This document shows, one piece after another, positions 45,376-53,236 of a DNA stretch of 53,493 bases. A model generated the notes under the pieces. The model made no database searches and was not told the DNA's origin. It worked only from the letters and a program-made list of their open reading frames with translations. The first letter of the stretch is position 1; each line of letters begins with the position of its first letter. Origin of the DNA: Gemmatimonadota bacterium (GTDB lineage Bacteria > Orphanbacterota > Orphanbacteria > Orphanbacterales > Orphanbacteraceae); contig JAGUYC010000066.1 of NCBI GenBank assembly GCA_020061515.1, positions 1 to 53,493 of the forward strand, in the 5' to 3' direction. A program made the translations under genes and the position numbers.

Positions 45376-46437
45376 ATGCGCATTACCCGCATCGAGGCGT
45401 GGCCGGTCGCGATGAAGCTCGCCGTGCCGTACGCGATCGCGTACGAGACGGTCGAGACGGCGACCAACGTTTTCTTGAGGATTGAAACGAACGTGGGGGT
45501 GACCGGGTTCGGCTGCGCGGCGCCCGATCTCCCCGTGACCGGAGAGACGCCGGAGGACGTGCTCGAGGCGATCCGCACGATCGGCGAGGAGACGCTCAAG
45601 GGGACCGATCCGCTCCGGACGATCAAGTTGATCGAGATGCTCCGGCCGCACCTCGCTGCGAAGCGCTCGACGCTCGCTTGCATCGACATGGCGCTCCACG
45701 ACATCCTCGGGAAGAGCGCGGGGATGCCCCTTTGGAAGCTTCTCGGCGGCTTCCGAAGGAGCTTCCCCACGAGCATCACGATCGGGATTCTCCCGCTCGA
45801 GGAGACGGTGGCGAGGGCGTGCGAGTACGTGGGCCGCGGGTTTCGCTCGCTGAAGATCAAGGGCGGAGTGTCCGTCGATGAGGACGCGGAGCGGGTGCTC
45901 AAAGTGCGAGAGGCGGTCGGCCCGAAGATCGAGCTCCGCTTCGACGCGAACCAGGGGTACACGGTGGAGGGCTCGCTCCGCTTCGTCGAGAGCGCGCGAA
46001 AGGCGAAGCTCGAGCTGATCGAGCAGCCGACGCCGAAGGGCGAACCGGATCTTCTTGGGCATGTGACGAGCCGCGTGGCGCTCCCGATCATGGCGGACGA
46101 ATCGCTCCGCACGCTCCGCGATGCGTTCCGCCTCGCCCGGCGGGATCTCGTCGACATGGTGAACGTGAAGCTGATGAAGGTGGGCGGGATCGGCGAGGCG
46201 CTCCTCATCAACGCGGTCGCGCGCGCCGCGCGGCTCGAGGTGATGGTCGGATGCCTCGACGAGTCGGCGCTCGGAATCGCCGCGGGCCTCCACTTCGCGC
46301 TCGCGCGGCCGAACGTCGCCTACTGCGACCTCGACGGCCACCTCGACCTCGTCGACGACCCCGCCGACGGCGCGGTGATCCTCAAGGACGGGGTCCTCTA
46401 CCCGACCGACAAGCCCGGCCTCGGCTTCGATCTTTGA
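45376..46437 (+). CDS. Enolase-superfamily dipeptide epimerase / DgcA-like racemase
   Basis: MRITRIEAWPV; FRSLKIKGG, ELRFDANQGYT, IEQPTP, PIMADESLRTL, VNVKLMKVGG. Confidence 0.85.
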   Translation: MRITRIEAWPVAMKLAVPYAIAYETVETATNVFLRIETNVGVTGFGCAAPDLPVTGETPEDVLEAIRTIGEETLKGTDPLRTIKLIEMLRPHLAAKRSTLACIDMALHDILGKSAGMPLWKLLGGFRRSFPTSITIGILPLEETVARACEYVGRGFRSLKIKGGVSVDEDAERVLKVREAVGPKIELRFDANQGYTVEGSLRFVESARKAKLELIEQPTPKGEPDLLGHVTSRVALPIMADESLRTLRDAFRLARRDLVDMVNVKLMKVGGIGEALLINAVARAARLEVMVGCLDESALGIAAGLHFALARPNVAYCDLDGHLDLVDDPADGAVILKDGVLYPTDKPGLGFDL

Positions 46438-46450
46438 GATGTACTTGAGA

Positions 46451-46600
46451 TGTACCAGGTACGTTCGGATCTACCAGGTACACGAATCCGGTACACGAAC
46501 CCGACCACACCCTGGGCACTCGCGCAGCCCGAAAACCCGCAACCCTCGAGCGCACCGTCCGTGAATCAGGGCATGATACTTGCGGGTTGTACCGGGTACA
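46451..46600. repeat. Cluster of TGTACC[A/G]GGTACA palindromes upstream of second transposase
   Basis: tgtaccaggtac 46451, ctaccaggtaca 46471, ccggtaca about 46489, tgtaccgggtaca 46588-46600. Confidence 0.8.
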
Positions 46601-46615
46601 GGAGGGTGGGGCGCG

Positions 46616-47167
46616 ATGGCGCGAACGCCTCGAATCGTGATCCCCGGAGTCCCGCACCACGTCTCGCAGCGAGGGAGTCAGGGACAGCATGTGTTCGACA
46701 CCGACGAAGACCGGGTTCTTTACCTCGACCTCCTTCACAGATACGCCAACATGCACGGTCTCGGGATATGGGCATACTGCTTGATGGCGAACCACGTCCA
46801 CTTGGTCGCCGTCCCTCAGGACGCCCAATCGATCGCTCTCTGTCTTCACGGCGCGCATCGTCTCCACGCCCTCCGGCGAAACCGGCGGGCCGGCGTGACC
46901 GGACATGTCTGGCAGGGTCACTACTATTCGTGCGGACTCGACGATCGGCATCTGTGGGCGGCCGTGCGGTATGTCGAACGGAATCCAGTCCGCGCCGGGA
47001 TCGTCGCCCGCGCCGAAGACTACCCGTGGTCCAGCGCGGCCGCGCACTGCGGGTCACGCGCGAACTTGCTTCTTGCGAACGATTTTCCGCCTTCGCACGA
47101 CGTCCGGGACTGGGCCGCGTGGCTCGCCGAGCCGGACGACGAAGCCCCGGTCGCCGCGATCCGGTGA
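46616..47167 (+). CDS. Y1 (REP-associated-type) tyrosine transposase
   Basis: ARTPRIVIPGVPHHVSQRGSQGQHVF, YCLMANHVHLVAVP (HxH), YVERNPVRAGIV; ggaggg SD. Confidence 0.92.
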   Translation: MARTPRIVIPGVPHHVSQRGSQGQHVFDTDEDRVLYLDLLHRYANMHGLGIWAYCLMANHVHLVAVPQDAQSIALCLHGAHRLHALRRNRRAGVTGHVWQGHYYSCGLDDRHLWAAVRYVERNPVRAGIVARAEDYPWSSAAAHCGSRANLLLANDFPPSHDVRDWAAWLAEPDDEAPVAAIR

Positions 47168-47191
47168 GCCCGTGCAACCCTCGTCCGACCC

Positions 47192-47253
47192 TGTACCAGG
47201 CACAGACGATCCGTAGATGTACCAGGTACAGCCCGTGAAGTGTACCTGGTACA
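47192..47253. repeat. Cluster of TGTACC[A/T]GG[T/C]ACA palindromes downstream of second transposase
   Basis: tgtaccaggcaca 47192, tgtaccaggtaca 47218, tgtacctggtaca 47241. Confidence 0.85.
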
Positions 47254-47263
47254 GATTACTCGA

Positions 47264-47977
47264 TCACGGCTGTCCGTCGGCGTCGCTCCGATTCCCCAAT
47301 CGGCTCTCGAGCTCCTGAACCCGGTCGAGAAGGATCTCGAGCACGCGGACGTCGTGATCGCCACGGCTCTCGGTGAGATCCACCTTCACCGCCTCCTCGC
47401 CGTCCGGCCTTCCGCGCCCGAGGATGCGCGCGGCGATTCCGATCACGGTCGCCCCGGGCGGAACGTCCTTCACGACGACCGCGCCGGCGCCGATCCGCGC
47501 GTTCTCCCCGACGCGGAGCGCGCCGAGCACCTTCGCGCCCGCGCCGACGATGACTCCTCGCTCGAGCGTGGGATGGCGCTTCTTCTTCTCGAGGCTCGTG
47601 CCGCCGAGGGTCACCCCTTGATAGAGAACGACGTCATCGCCGATCTCGGCCGTCTCTCCGATCACGACGCCCATTCCGTGATCGATGAAGAAACGCCTCC
47701 CGACGACCGCACCCGGATGGATCTCGATCCCGGTAAGCGCGCGGCTCGCGTGGCTGAGGAGCCGTGCCGCGAAGCGCAGCCTCCACGTCCAGAGCCGGTG
47801 CGCGAGGCGATGCATCCAGATCGCGTGAAGACCCGGGTAGCAGAAGAGCACCTCGAGAGCGCTCCGCGCCGCGGGATCCTTTTCGAAGACCGTTCGAATA
47901 TCCTCGAGAGGACGGTCGAACGGTTTCGGCCATTCTTTCGCGCGCACCGCCGGCGCCGCTTCCACATGCTCCGCCAT
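47264..47977 (-). CDS. cysE: Serine O-acetyltransferase
   Basis: [44 protein letters not shown] hexapeptide repeats; downstream of cysK. Confidence 0.95.
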
Positions 47978-47981
47978 CTCC

Positions 47982-48941
47982 CTACTCCTTTCGCGCCGCG
48001 GGCGCTGCCTTCGCGACATCGAGAAGCGCCGTCGAAAGATACCGCTCCCCCGTGTCCGGAAAGATCGCGACGAGGAGCTTCCCCGCGTTTTCCCGACGCC
48101 TCGCGACCTCGAGCGCCGCGACGAGCGCCGCTCCGCACGAGATCCCGGCGAGGATCCCCTCCTCGCGCGCGATCCGGCGAGCCGCCGCGAACGCCTCGTC
48201 GCTTGATACCTGAATGATCTCGTCGATCACGCTTGGGTTCAGGATCTTCGGGACGAACCCGGCCCCGATCCCCTGGATCTTGTGCGGAGCCGGCTTTCCG
48301 CCCGACAACACCGGGGACTCCCTCGGCTCGACCGCCACGAGGCGGAGCGAAGGACGCCGCGGCTTCAGAACCTCTCCGCATCCGGTGATCGTCCCGCCCG
48401 TTCCGATCCCGGAGACGAGGATGTCGACCCTGCCGTCGGTGTCGGCCCAGATCTCCTCAGCGGTCGTCTCGCAATGGATCGCGGGGTTCGCCGAGTTCTC
48501 GAACTGTTGAGGGATATACGATTGAGGTGTTTCCGCGGCGACCTCCCGTGCCCGTTCGACCGCGCCGGTCATCCCCTTCTCGCCGGGGGTGAGGATCACC
48601 TCCGCGCCGAAAAGCCGGAGTAGGTTTCGCCGCTCAAGGCTCACGGTCTCGGGCATCGTCACGATGAGGCGATACCCCCTCGCCGCCGCCACGAACGCGA
48701 GGGCGATCCCGGTGTTTCCGCTCGTCGGCTCGACGAGCACCGTCACCCCGGGGCGGATCAGTCCCTCGCGCTCCGCCGCGTCGATCATGCTCACGCCGAT
48801 CCGGTCCTTCACGCTCGAGAGCGGGTTGAACGACTCGAGCTTCGCGACGATCCGCGCGCCTCCCTTCGGCGACAGACGCCGAAGCTCGACGAGGGGCGTA
48901 CGCCCGATGGTTTTCGTGATGTCCGAATAGATGGTTCCCAT
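47982..48941 (-). CDS. cysK: Cysteine synthase A
   Basis: [73 protein letters not shown]. Confidence 0.97.
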
Positions 48942-49017
48942 GCCAAGAGTTCCTTCCGATGGCTCCCCGCGGCGACGCTTCGCGCGGCCGCCGCCGGAAA
49001 CCGGTGCCGGGGACGAG

Positions 49018-49045
49018 AAAACCCGCCGGCGCGCTGCCGACGGGT
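49018..49045 (-). terminator. Attenuator: intrinsic terminator between cys leader ORF and cysK
   Basis: Minus strand ACCCGTCGGC-AGCGC-GCCGGCGGGT-TTTCTC; 10-bp stem (one G:T) and U-tract. Confidence 0.85.
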
Positions 49046-49083
49046 GGAAGTCTCGATCCGGTTCGGCGATCGGAAACGATGGA

Positions 49084-49164
49084 CTAGATCGAGGCCCTCC
49101 CTCCCGCGGCGCGCGCGCGACAACAACAACAGCAGCAGCCAATCCCGCGGGCGAAGGTTCTCAT
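49084..49164 (-). CDS. Poly-cysteine leader peptide [26 protein letters not shown]
   Basis: ATG AGA ACC TTC GCC CGC GGG ATT GGC TGC TGC TGT TGT TGT TGT CGC ... ATC TAG; SD GAGGA; upstream of cysK-cysE. Confidence 0.88.
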
Positions 49165-49210
49165 TCCGTTCCTCGAATCCGGCCGAACGACCGACCGTGT
49201 TTGTTGGTGA

Positions 49211-49239
49211 AGTATAGCGTGAAAGCCCGCGCGCGTCAA
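49211..49239 (-). promoter_or_regulatory. cysK-cysE promoter, TTGACG-17-TATACT
   Basis: cgtcaa 49234-49239; agtata 49211-49216; about 40 nt to leader ATG. Confidence 0.85.
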
Positions 49240-49267
49240 ACGACTCCTCGATGCGCCGGCCGGATCC

Positions 49268-50575
49268 TCACGTTCTCGCGAGGAAGGTCACCGTCTCGAC
49301 GTGCGGCGTTTGCGGGAACATGTCGACGAGAAGCACGCGCTCGATCCCGTATCCCTCCGCCTCGAGCAGGCGCGCGTCGCGCGCGAGGGTCGCCGGATCG
49401 CAGCTCACGAGGTCGATCCGCCGCGGGCGGAGACGCCCGAGGTCGCGGACCACGGAAGCCCCGAGCCCCGTCCGCGGCGGATCGGCGACGACCTCCGCTC
49501 CCTCGGAGTCTCCGAACGGAAGCCCGCTCTCCGCCCATCCGGAGAGGACCTTCTCGACGAGACCCGGGACGACGGTTCCTCTCTTCGCGACGTCCGGATC
49601 CCGCGCGAGGTTCGCGCGCGCGTCCCGAACCGCGCCGCGATCGCTCTCGACCGTCACCACCCTCTCGAAGCGATCCCCGAGCGCCGCGGCGAAAAGGCCG
49701 ACCCCGCCGTAGAGATCGAGGAGAAGAGGCCCGCTCCGGTCCGCGGATCGGCCGCGCTCTTCCATCCGCGCGCCGAGCCGGCGGACGAGCGCCTCGGTCT
49801 CCGCAAGGTTCACCTGAAAGAAGCTGTGCGCGTGCGCGCGGAACATGCGCCCGGCGAGCGGGATCTCCAGATTCTCCTCTCCCCACACCACCCTCCCGCT
49901 CACGAGAAGGCCGAGGCAGGAGGGCGGAACGCGGATCCCTCCGATCCTCGCGAGAACGCGTTCGGCGAACGAGGCGGGCTTTTCCTTCACTCCGGAGAGA
50001 TCGGCGAGGAAGCCGCCCCTCCCGTCGAGCCGGACGAGCGCCTGCGGAGCGCGCGGGAGATCGAGAAGGAACGGGAGCGCTTCGCGGTTGAACACTTCGG
50101 GCATCAGAAGGCTTCGGTCGAGCGGAATGACCTCGTGCGTCCCGCGGCGGTGCATTCCGTATCGCCCGCCGGACCCGAGATGCAGAAGAATCTTGTTCCG
50201 GTATCCCCAGGCGGGACCGGCCGGCTCCGGACCCGTCAGCCGCTCCCCGAGATCGATGCGCGCGATCCGCGCGAAGCAGTCGCGCACGATCTCCCGCTTC
50301 GCCGCCCGCTGCGCGGAGAGCTTCATGTAGAAAAGATCGGCCCCCGCGAGCGCGCCGGGCGACGCATCCGGAGGATCTTCCCGATCCGGCGAGGCATCGA
50401 GGATCTCGACGAGCGCAGCCTCGATGAACCCCTTCGCGCGCCGGACGACCCTCACCCGCACGCGCTCCCCCGGCAGCGCCCCGCGGACGAACACCACCTC
50501 CCCGTCCATCCGCCCCATCCCGGCGCCGCCGGTCACGAGCTTCTCAATCGTCGTTTCGAGGACTTCGCCGTGCAT
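49268..50575 (-). CDS. RlmD/TrmA-family RNA (uracil-5-)-methyltransferase
   Basis: TRAM-like N-terminus IEKLVTGGAGMGRMDGEVVFVRGALPGERVRVRVV; LLDLYGGVGLFAAAL; VADPPRTGLGASVV; VSCDPATLARD. Confidence 0.92.
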   Translation of the reverse strand: MHGEVLETTIEKLVTGGAGMGRMDGEVVFVRGALPGERVRVRVVRRAKGFIEAALVEILDASPDREDPPDASPGALAGADLFYMKLSAQRAAKREIVRDCFARIARIDLGERLTGPEPAGPAWGYRNKILLHLGSGGRYGMHRRGTHEVIPLDRSLLMPEVFNREALPFLLDLPRAPQALVRLDGRGGFLADLSGVKEKPASFAERVLARIGGIRVPPSCLGLLVSGRVVWGEENLEIPLAGRMFRAHAHSFFQVNLAETEALVRRLGARMEERGRSADRSGPLLLDLYGGVGLFAAALGDRFERVVTVESDRGAVRDARANLARDPDVAKRGTVVPGLVEKVLSGWAESGLPFGDSEGAEVVADPPRTGLGASVVRDLGRLRPRRIDLVSCDPATLARDARLLEAEGYGIERVLLVDMFPQTPHVETVTFLART

Positions 50576-50577
50576 AA

Positions 50578-50617
50578 GCAGAAACGCCCGGTGCCGAATC
50601 GCGAATCGGGCCGGGCG
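50578..50617 (-). terminator. Terminator-like hairpin immediately upstream of the rlmD-like start
   Basis: CGCCCGG-CCCGATTCGCGATTCGGCA-CCGGGCG then TTTCTGCTT-ATG. Confidence 0.7.
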
Positions 50618-50635
50618 CGAAGGGAGTGCGGGCTC

Positions 50636-50869
50636 CTACCAATCGAGGATCAAGTTCGTGGTGGTCCCCTGGATCCCCTCGATCGCCCGAATCTTGCTCA
50701 CCACCAGGTCGAGAATCGAATCGACCGAACCGCTTTCGACGAGACAAATGATATCCTGCTCGCCGGCCGTGATGTCGGCGCTCAGGACCTCGGGAACCTG
50801 ACGAAGGCGGTTGCGGACGTCCACCTCGCGCCCGACGTCGGTGTTGATGCGAAGATACGCCTTGGCCAT
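50636..50869 (-). CDS. Stand-alone Lrp/AsnC ligand-binding (RAM) domain protein
   Basis: AYLRINTDVGREVDVRNRLRQVPEVLSADITAGEQDIICLVESGSVDSILDLVVSKIRAIEGIQGTTTNLIL; no HTH. Confidence 0.8.
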   Translation of the reverse strand: MAKAYLRINTDVGREVDVRNRLRQVPEVLSADITAGEQDIICLVESGSVDSILDLVVSKIRAIEGIQGTTTNLILDW

Positions 50870-50920
50870 TGCCGCTCCTTCTCGGTTCGCCCCCGCGCGC
50901 CGGCGCGAAGAGCCCTCCGT

Positions 50921-51493
50921 CTAGTAGAACACGATCTTCCGCAGCGTCTGCAGCTCGTCTCCAGTCACCAGGAAGGAACCGCCCTCCTGCAGCTCGCCGC
51001 CGATCTGGTTGATGCGAACGATGAACTCGATCGTCTCGCCGTCGGTCTTCCGGATCTCCGTGCGGAAGGTGTAGTCGAGATCCTTGTCCTCGATCATGTC
51101 GTACTTGTGCGAAGCCGAAAGCGCCTCGGAAGCTCCGATCCTTCCGAGAACGCGAAGCTGCTTGATGAAGCGCTTCTTGATCTCGTAGCGGGTGTTGAGG
51201 AAGTACCCGACCAGGGCCTCGCTCGATCCGAAGCCGTGCCCGGTGTTGAAACGGATATTTCTTACATAATACGTATCGATATCGGTTGTAACGATTCCGT
51301 TCTTATTGACTTGAAGCGTTTCGAGGAAGGGAGAGTCGGATTCCGTTTCCTGGGCCGCCTCCCGATCGCGCTCCCGGCCTTCCGAGCGCGCCTTCGCGTC
51401 GGCGTCCCCGAGCCGAGGCGCTCCGGCGCAGGCCGCGAGAAGAAGGAAAAGGAACAGAAGGGGAAATGGGCTTCGCCTGATCGCCGTGGACAC
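50921..51493 (-). CDS. Putative lipoprotein, unknown function
   Basis: RRSPFPLLFLFLLLAACAGAP lipobox. Confidence 0.65.
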   Translation of the reverse strand: MSTAIRRSPFPLLFLFLLLAACAGAPRLGDADAKARSEGRERDREAAQETESDSPFLETLQVNKNGIVTTDIDTYYVRNIRFNTGHGFGSSEALVGYFLNTRYEIKKRFIKQLRVLGRIGASEALSASHKYDMIEDKDLDYTFRTEIRKTDGETIEFIVRINQIGGELQEGGSFLVTGDELQTLRKIVFY

Positions 51494-51733
51494 GTGGCAC
51501 CTCCTCGAAGGCGGACCTCGGAGCGACCGACCGCCTTCATGCTACCGGGCCGGCGCGGCGCGCGTCAAGAAGCATCGGGTCAACGATCCGGCCCCCGCAT
51601 CCCCTCGACGCAGGGCCGGAAGAGGTCGAAGATCCCGGCGATGCTCCCTCCCGACCTCCGCTCTTTTCGAGTGGCCGCGCGATGGGCCTCAGGCTAAGTT
51701 AATGCATGAGCCCCGCATGGTAGGGAGAGCCGC

Positions 51734-52762
51734 ATGAAGATCGAAGCGGAAGGCGCCCCGCATCCGGCGCTCTGGTGGCGGGAAGAGAACGGGCGCGTCG
51801 TCTGCACCCTCTGCCCCCGCTTCTGCAGCCTGCGCGAAGGACAGGCGGGCTTCTGCTTCATCCGCAAGAACGTCGGCGGCGCGCTCGTTTCGCTCGGCTA
51901 CGGGCGGCCGACCGGTTTCGGCATCGACCCGGTCGAGAAGAAACCCCTGAACCACTTCCTCCCCGGAACGTCGATCCTCTCGTTCGGAACCGCGGGATGC
52001 AACCTCGGCTGCAAGTTCTGCCAGAACTGGACGACGACGAAGGCCAAGGCGGACGCGGTGCGCACCGTCCGCGCCTCTCCGGAGGACGTCGTGCGGATCG
52101 CAATCGCCGAAGATTGCGTCTCGATCGCCTACACATACAACGACCCGGTCATCTTCGGCGAGTTCGTGATCGACGTCTCCCGCCTCGCGCGCGGGGCGGG
52201 CCTCAAGAACGTGATGGTGACCGCCGGATACATCACCGATGAGGCGCGCGCCGACGTCTTCCGTTTCATCGACGCGGCCAACGTCGATCTCAAGGCTTTC
52301 GACGATGCTTTCTATCAGAAGTACTCCCTCGCCCGCATCGAGCCGGTCAAGGAAACGCTCCTTTGGCTCCGGAATGAGACGGAGATCTGGATCGAAATCA
52401 CAACCCTTCTCATCCCCGGCCTCAACGACTCGCCGGAGGAGATTCGCGCCGAGTGCGCGTGGATTCGGGAGACGCTCGGGGCCGGAACGCCGCTCCACTT
52501 CACCGCCTTTCATCCGGACTACCGGATGAAGGACCTTCCCCGAACGCCCCACGCGACCCTCCGGCACGCCCGCTCGATCGCGAAAGAGGAGGGTCTCGAT
52601 TTCGTTTATATCGGAAACGTCTCGGACGCCGAGGGACAGACGACCTTCTGTCCCGGATGCGGCGCGGTTCTCATCGAAAGAGATTGGCACTCGGTCCGCC
52701 GGAATCGGTTGCGGGGTGGGGCGTGTCCGGATTGCGGCGCGCGGATCCCCGGGGTCTGGTAA
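51734..52762 (+). CDS. amrS: AmmeMemoRadiSam-system radical SAM enzyme (AmrS-like)
   Basis: CTLCPRFCSLREGQAGFC; FGTAGCNLGCKFCQNW; YTYNDPVIFGEFV; C-terminal FCPGCGAVLI..CPDCGARI. Confidence 0.93.
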   Translation: MKIEAEGAPHPALWWREENGRVVCTLCPRFCSLREGQAGFCFIRKNVGGALVSLGYGRPTGFGIDPVEKKPLNHFLPGTSILSFGTAGCNLGCKFCQNWTTTKAKADAVRTVRASPEDVVRIAIAEDCVSIAYTYNDPVIFGEFVIDVSRLARGAGLKNVMVTAGYITDEARADVFRFIDAANVDLKAFDDAFYQKYSLARIEPVKETLLWLRNETEIWIEITTLLIPGLNDSPEEIRAECAWIRETLGAGTPLHFTAFHPDYRMKDLPRTPHATLRHARSIAKEEGLDFVYIGNVSDAEGQTTFCPGCGAVLIERDWHSVRRNRLRGGACPDCGARIPGVW

Positions 52763-53236
52763 GTCGCCTCTCCCCAACCGCCCTTGCCGCTTTCGCCGTT
52801 CGTGCGGTAAGTGCCCGCATGTCCATTCCCCCCATTGGGAAGTCGGGCATGTATCGAACGCGTGCCCGGATTTCGGAACCGTTCTCGAAACCGATCCGCT
52901 CTTCTGCTCCGCCGAGACGGGGGACTTCGCCCTCTGCTCGAACTCGCCCGCGGCCGGCGGGCCGTGCGGCCTCCTCGGCGCGTTCGACGTCGGATGCGGT
53001 TCGTGCGGTCCGATCCGGACGCAGCCGACGAGCTGGGGAGTGATGAAGAGACTCTTTCGATCGCGCGGCTCACTGTCGGCCTTCTCACTCGCTCCGTGCG
53101 ATCCCCCGCGCCCCGGTCCGGATGTGTGCGAACAACCGCTGATTCTTCGCTTTCGCCACGTCCCTCTCCACTTTCCAAGAGGATTTCGTTAGAGTAGGAA
53201 CACTCCGCCGGCACGCGGCGGGCCGGGAGGTGATCC

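Follow-up and report, generated by a model that had tools for sequence, protein, structure and literature searches.

The trp, his, leu, phe and thr attenuators of enterobacteria share a layout in which a short leader open reading frame (ORF), led by a Shine-Dalgarno (SD) sequence and carrying a run of codons that specify the end product, is combined with alternative RNA helices (1:2, 2:3 and 3:4), an intrinsic terminator and a biosynthetic operon downstream. For cysteine, the uORFC-8-2 motif before cysS in Rhodobacterales consists of a Cys-containing upstream ORF and an intrinsic terminator and is predicted to act by ribosome-mediated attenuation (PMC8632094). Cys leader peptides also precede cys operons and cbs in Mycobacterium, P. 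acnes and B. longum, where conserved terminators are lacking (PMC1262725). According to the accounts of Canestrari 2020 given in PMC13236596 and PMC9094748, the mycobacterial poly-Cys ORFs are leaderless translation attenuators that respond to cysteine in M. smegmatis. A preliminary description of the locus reported here had mentioned poly-Cys attenuators from mycobacteria; they are indeed known there, but they are not confined to that group, since Cys leaders also occur in Propionibacterium and Bifidobacterium (PMC1262725) and in Rhodobacterales (PMC8632094).

Here we analyze a cysK-cysE operon on the minus strand of a window of 53,493 nucleotides (the whole stretch of DNA under study). The operon and the leader in front of it comprise the following features:

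49211-49239, minus strand: sigma-70-type promoter TTGACG-17-TATACT (-35 TTGACG at 49239-49234, 17-nt spacer, -10 TATACT at 49216-49211; exact coordinate check and consensus scan)
49170-49174, minus strand: Shine-Dalgarno sequence GAGGA of the leader ORF (sequence reading and coordinate check)
49084-49164, minus strand: SD-led leader ORF of 26 codons plus the stop TAG (coordinate check and comparison with the congener)
49120-49137, minus strand: six consecutive Cys codons, TGC TGC TGT TGT TGT TGT (codons 10-15), the regulatory codons
49145-49162, minus strand: segment 1, which pairs with segment 2 into the 1:2 (protector) hairpin if no ribosome is on top
49087-49119, minus strand: segment 2, codons 16-26, the 5' strand of the antiterminator, including CTCGATC at 49093-49087
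49031-49058, minus strand: segment 3, the 3' strand of the antiterminator, made up of GATCGAG (49058-49052) and the terminator 5' arm and loop
49021-49045, minus strand: intrinsic terminator hairpin (segments 3:4), ACCCGTCGGC-AGCGC-GCCGGCGGGT, GC-rich, 10 bp, -19.6 kcal/mol
49013-49020, minus strand: U-rich terminator tail (TTTCTCGT; sequence reading; the T run is longer in the congener)
47982-48941, minus strand: cysK, cysteine synthase A (TIGR01139, 452 bits versus a cut-off of 351), with SD AAGGA at 48955-48951
47264-47977, minus strand: cysE, serine O-acetyltransferase (TIGR01172, 251 bits versus a cut-off of 211)

This arrangement has all of the shared features of the enterobacterial attenuators; it differs from them in that the regulatory codons specify cysteine, in that it belongs to a different phylum-level lineage, and in that segment 2 is part of the ORF and directly follows the regulatory codons. 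With uORFC-8-2 it has in common an upstream ORF with adjacent Cys codons followed by an intrinsic terminator, whereas that motif has two Cys codons and is found in Alphaproteobacteria upstream of the cysteinyl-tRNA synthetase gene cysS; the downstream gene in the window is cysK. What it shares with the actinobacterial and mycobacterial leaders is a short ORF that contains a Cys run and precedes cysteine genes. However, those leaders are without conserved terminators, leaderless in mycobacteria and, in the citing papers, described as translational, whereas the leader in the window has an SD, an intrinsic terminator and a promoter match that ends 47 nt upstream of the start codon. As it is neither leaderless nor placed before cysS, we assign it to the ribosome-mediated transcription attenuators in general and to neither specific family. 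The components of the trp type were all found: a predicted SD-led, Cys-rich leader ORF, an intrinsic terminator, an antiterminator in simulation and cysteine-making genes downstream. Very probably, the leader acts as a ribosome-mediated transcription attenuator of the trp type, with charged tRNA-Cys as its signal and cysK-cysE as its target.

Coordinate checks, scans and NCBIfam comparison bore out every element that the preliminary description had listed (promoter, SD, 26-codon ORF, six Cys codons, hairpin and cysK-cysE), and both downstream proteins exceed their NCBIfam cut-offs. Consensus scans of 48900-49400 reported this promoter and this hairpin as the sole promoter and the sole terminator of the region, compared with means of 0.1 and 0.6, respectively, in shuffled sequence. 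The tail had been given as TTTTCTC; the first T is in fact the last base of the stem, so that the tail reads TTTCTC, and the U tract of the window is short and interrupted (UUUCUC), whereas the congener has a full U run. No relevant match to Rfam leader families was obtained for 46000-53000 at E values up to 1. The mechanical ORF call for cysE begins at 48019; judging from the orthologue in the congener, the likely start is the ATG at 47977, four bases past the cysK stop. Downstream of cysE, an ORF at 46580-47167 resembles, by eye, a small REP-associated (IS200-like) transposase, and the congener has a similar ORF past cysE (L143:8982-9677), which likewise faces the operon.

The run of Cys codons sets the leader apart from the rest of the genome. 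Runs of five TGY codons are confined to this leader in the genome of the window (3.3 Mb) and to the orthologous leader in that of the congener (G001; 3.5 Mb), one place in each. DNA, protein and pattern searches of the other five genomes of the phylum (all of one family; seven genomes in all) found no such leader, and these five genomes have no close relative of this cysK (best identity about 41-47%). The Cys codons of five neighboring genes are TGC 19 times and TGT twice, whereas the leader uses TGT at four of its six positions (49137-49120) and its counterpart in the congener at four of five; this preference could mean either that decoding is slowed or that G-C pairing in the leader is avoided.

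Evidence from conservation comes from two genomes of one genus, that of the window and G001. The preliminary description had proposed a comparison with related upstream regions, and this comparison came out in its favor in that the congener keeps the Cys run and the terminator arms. On the other side, the changes observed within the helices are one-sided. The conserved block starts at the promoter, where the -35 TTGACG is identical, the -10 reads TAAACT, and the 17-nt spacing is kept within a diverged spacer (59% identity over the promoter stretch). The SD is preserved (GAGGAGCGGAATG), and the alignment, gapless from the start codon through the whole terminator stem, shows the same ORF length and reading frame. 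Seven of 27 codons differ between the window and the congener: three synonymously (ATT>ATC, GGC>GGT, TGC>TGT), the stop (TAG>TGA) and three nonsynonymously (Cys15>Arg, Ala24>Gly, Ser25>Leu). The first five Cys codons therefore remain Cys and the sixth is Arg, a position that has no effect in the folding model. One candidate interpretation, that the leader had moved into a new neighborhood, was dropped: rlmD/rumA lies upstream in both genomes, and the congener merely has an extra ORF (L143:3975-5135), absent from the window and probably encoding a secreted protein, between rlmD/rumA and the leader.

Within the ORF, codons 1-7 and 16-23 match at all three positions; they supply both sides of the 1:2 hairpin and a large part of the antiterminator strand. 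In cysK, about 317 codons show 69 third-position differences between the same genomes. All 22 pairs of the 1:2 hairpin are kept (three via one-sided changes to G-U type pairs), as are 35 of the 40 antiterminator pairs of the window, the other five being broken; the terminator arms are identical at 20 of 20 positions and the loop at two of five. If the short ORF instead encoded a functional Cys-rich peptide that binds metal or thiols, with a constitutive terminator behind it, the identity of the N-terminal residues in both genomes would be expected. However, the N-terminal codons are also identical in their third positions and form the 1:2 hairpin, and a functional peptide would leave both the position before cysK-cysE and the competing structures unexplained, so we find this account scarcely credible.

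We folded the leader RNA of both genomes at equilibrium with standard 37 C parameters, blocking it codon by codon as a ribosome would. With no ribosome, the 1:2 hairpin and the terminator form, and the probability of the terminator, P(terminator), is 0.98-0.99 in both genomes. When segment 2 is free, a long antiterminator is the fold of lowest energy: 49123-49087 then pairs with GATCGAG and on through the terminator 5' arm and loop into the 3' arm. For the window, P(terminator) is 0.00 with the A site at Cys codons 10-13, 0.49 at codon 14 and 0.99 from codon 15 to the stop; for the congener, it is 0.03-0.05 at codons 10-12, 0.74 at codon 13 and 0.96 or more thereafter. The switch thus falls within the Cys run in both genomes, and its position stays within codons 12-15 for assumed downstream footprints of 9-17 nt. 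When pairing across the stalled ribosome is permitted, antitermination is limited to Cys codons 10-11 in the window and to about codon 10 in the congener. The model antiterminates also with stalls at codons 5-9, so specificity for cysteine rests on the Cys run itself.

The competing structure is more extensive than had been thought. The preliminary description named CTCGATC and GATCGAG as the competitor of the terminator; the two are indeed complementary, but when this is the only helix able to form (ribosome at codons 15-20), P(terminator) is still 0.98-0.99. We therefore reject it as the sole antiterminator: because it coexists with the terminator in the simulation, it is, in the model, the nucleus of the antiterminator and not the part that blocks the terminator. 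The competing segment is 49119-49096, right after the Cys codons, which pairs with the terminator 5' arm and loop. With this correction, the original proposal, in which a leader peptide and a terminator are joined by a competing structure governed by where the ribosome stands, is supported by conservation in the congener and by the simulated-ribosome folding in both genomes.

Is such pairing to be expected of any sequence encoding this peptide? Among synonymous recodings of codons 16-26 that follow the codon usage of the five neighboring genes, 0.3% reach an ensemble energy equal to or lower than that of the window's antiterminator (which thus beats 99.7%); for the congener, 4-21% are equally stable, depending on the stall position. 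Permuting the order of the codons abolishes the switch in 97-99% of cases. The duplex between codons 16-26 and GATCGAG-5' arm-loop, at -41.0 kcal/mol in the window, is matched by none of 3000 codon-order permutations, and the same type of duplex in the congener, at -32.7 kcal/mol, is matched by 0.4%. Against the hairpin alone, the observed codon order is not special among permutations, so the signal resides in the extended pairing. A coincidence of a TGY run and a terminator-like hairpin before cysK might be entertained in a GC-rich genome, all the more as leader-like ORFs with TGY runs do arise by chance elsewhere, but neither genome has a second such Cys run and the two runs occupy orthologous positions; this uniqueness, the conservation pattern and the permutation tests leave coincidence with a close to negligible probability. 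The leader is a correct observation and far from chance.

The region between the terminator and cysK bears on the level at which control is exerted. These 71 nt (49012-48942) are 94% identical in the congener, against 91% for cysK itself, and fold strongly in both genomes; perhaps they add a further level of control, acting at the cysK ribosome binding site. One could go further and suppose that control is translational, as in mycobacteria, with a stalled ribosome altering access to the cysK SD and the hairpin not being a working terminator. The conserved and folded 71 nt, the short U tract of the window and the account of mycobacterial Cys leaders as translation attenuators (Canestrari 2020, as cited in PMC13236596) would all fit. 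However, a GC-rich 10-bp hairpin with unchanged arms, a diverged loop and a U run in the congener is consistent with an intrinsic terminator; the ribosome-dependent competition is with this very hairpin, which is placed 80 nt before cysK. We regard translational control as unlikely. For the terminator-less actinobacterial Cys leaders, Rho-dependent attenuation has been proposed (PMC1262725); in the window, such a mechanism would be coupled to translation of the leader, and the hairpin would be an accessory. However, an intrinsic terminator is present and conserved here, and the RNA past the ORF is GC-rich, structured and without a long C-rich unstructured stretch, which makes this mechanism very unlikely.

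Under the trp-type attenuator that we favor, transcription would start about 40 nt upstream of the leader ORF, and we infer that the ORF is translated as it emerges, with a timing that lets the ribosome decide between the two folds during transcription. When cysteine is plentiful, the ribosome would pass the six Cys codons to the stop and cover segment 2 (49119-49087), the terminator at 49045-49021 would form, and transcription would end ahead of cysK. When cysteinyl-tRNA is short, the ribosome would stall at the first Cys codons and leave segment 2 free, with GATCGAG as its first pairing partner and the terminator 5' arm and loop as the next; the antiterminator would block the terminator, and cysK-cysE would be transcribed. 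In the absence of a ribosome, segments 1 and 2 would pair and the terminator would form. It follows from this scheme that a shortage of cysteine at the ribosomes most likely turns on cysteine production in this bacterium.

Across the domain, the leader peptide was sought in 386 genomes and found only in that of the window and in the congener. Among the matches listed for an SD-ATG-TGYx4 pattern, nearly all are Leu CTG runs read out of frame; a handful of those checked are in frame, and none of these precedes cysteine genes. Three pattern matches within the phylum were set aside: L114 and L115 look like chance and are out of frame, and L203 is a 57-aa ORF after an ArsR-like gene and not a leader. 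Leaders with His or Phe runs were also sought in the phylum; among the matches, none was noticed to be in frame. In about 220 other cysK upstream regions, searched for a short Cys ORF followed by a terminator, no other poly-Cys leader with a terminator was found, and one weaker candidate emerged (L095). Weak Cys-rich short ORFs also lie 139 nt upstream of cysK in L051 and 210 nt upstream in L018 (MSPACKCACCRPFFLCKAFGPPL and MEVDRCFCNNDSCLLL, respectively); they lack a clear SD or a terminator downstream.

The weaker candidate, L095:1955-2110, comes from a Chloroflexota metagenome-assembled genome (Anaerolineales bacterium UBA2029, DDBP01000347.1). Its ORF, MFAIARPQACACICLNTHRQRLWRGAMA*, has three Cys codons; behind it come a perfect 12-bp terminator, which has a T run, and then cysK. 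Downstream of its Cys codons, the coding sequence is nearly complementary to the terminator arm and loop, and the duplex of codons 15-28 with the ORF's own terminator (-29.6 kcal/mol) is matched by two of 3000 permutations. In equilibrium folding, the terminator wins at every ribosome position. G207 has a cysK close to that of L095, and in its class the arrangement is absent from all of the best 30 cysK matches. It is possible that L095 is an independent cysteine attenuator in Chloroflexota, and we treat it as a lead, not as a second proof.

The kind of control described here is already known; this cysK-cysE example of it is new. To our knowledge, leader-peptide regulation has not been described in this phylum-level lineage, and our analysis adds, for a lineage that is sparsely sampled (seven genomes examined), a predicted cysteine attenuator that is complete and conserved, includes an intrinsic terminator and lends itself to testing. 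The predicted behavior is specific: Cys codons 10-13 should matter and codons 14-15 hardly at all, which fits the loss of the sixth Cys codon in the congener. Terminator-based attenuation by Cys leaders may have arisen independently in several unrelated phyla (before cysK-cysE in this lineage, before at least one Anaerolineales cysK, that of L095, and before cysS in Rhodobacterales), with the antiterminators of the window and L095 built alike from post-Cys codons complementary to the terminator 5' arm and loop; we give this broader proposal an even chance of being right. Elsewhere, cysK and cysE are regulated by CysB, CymR or T-boxes, and the present locus suggests that cysK-cysE can be run by trp-type logic.
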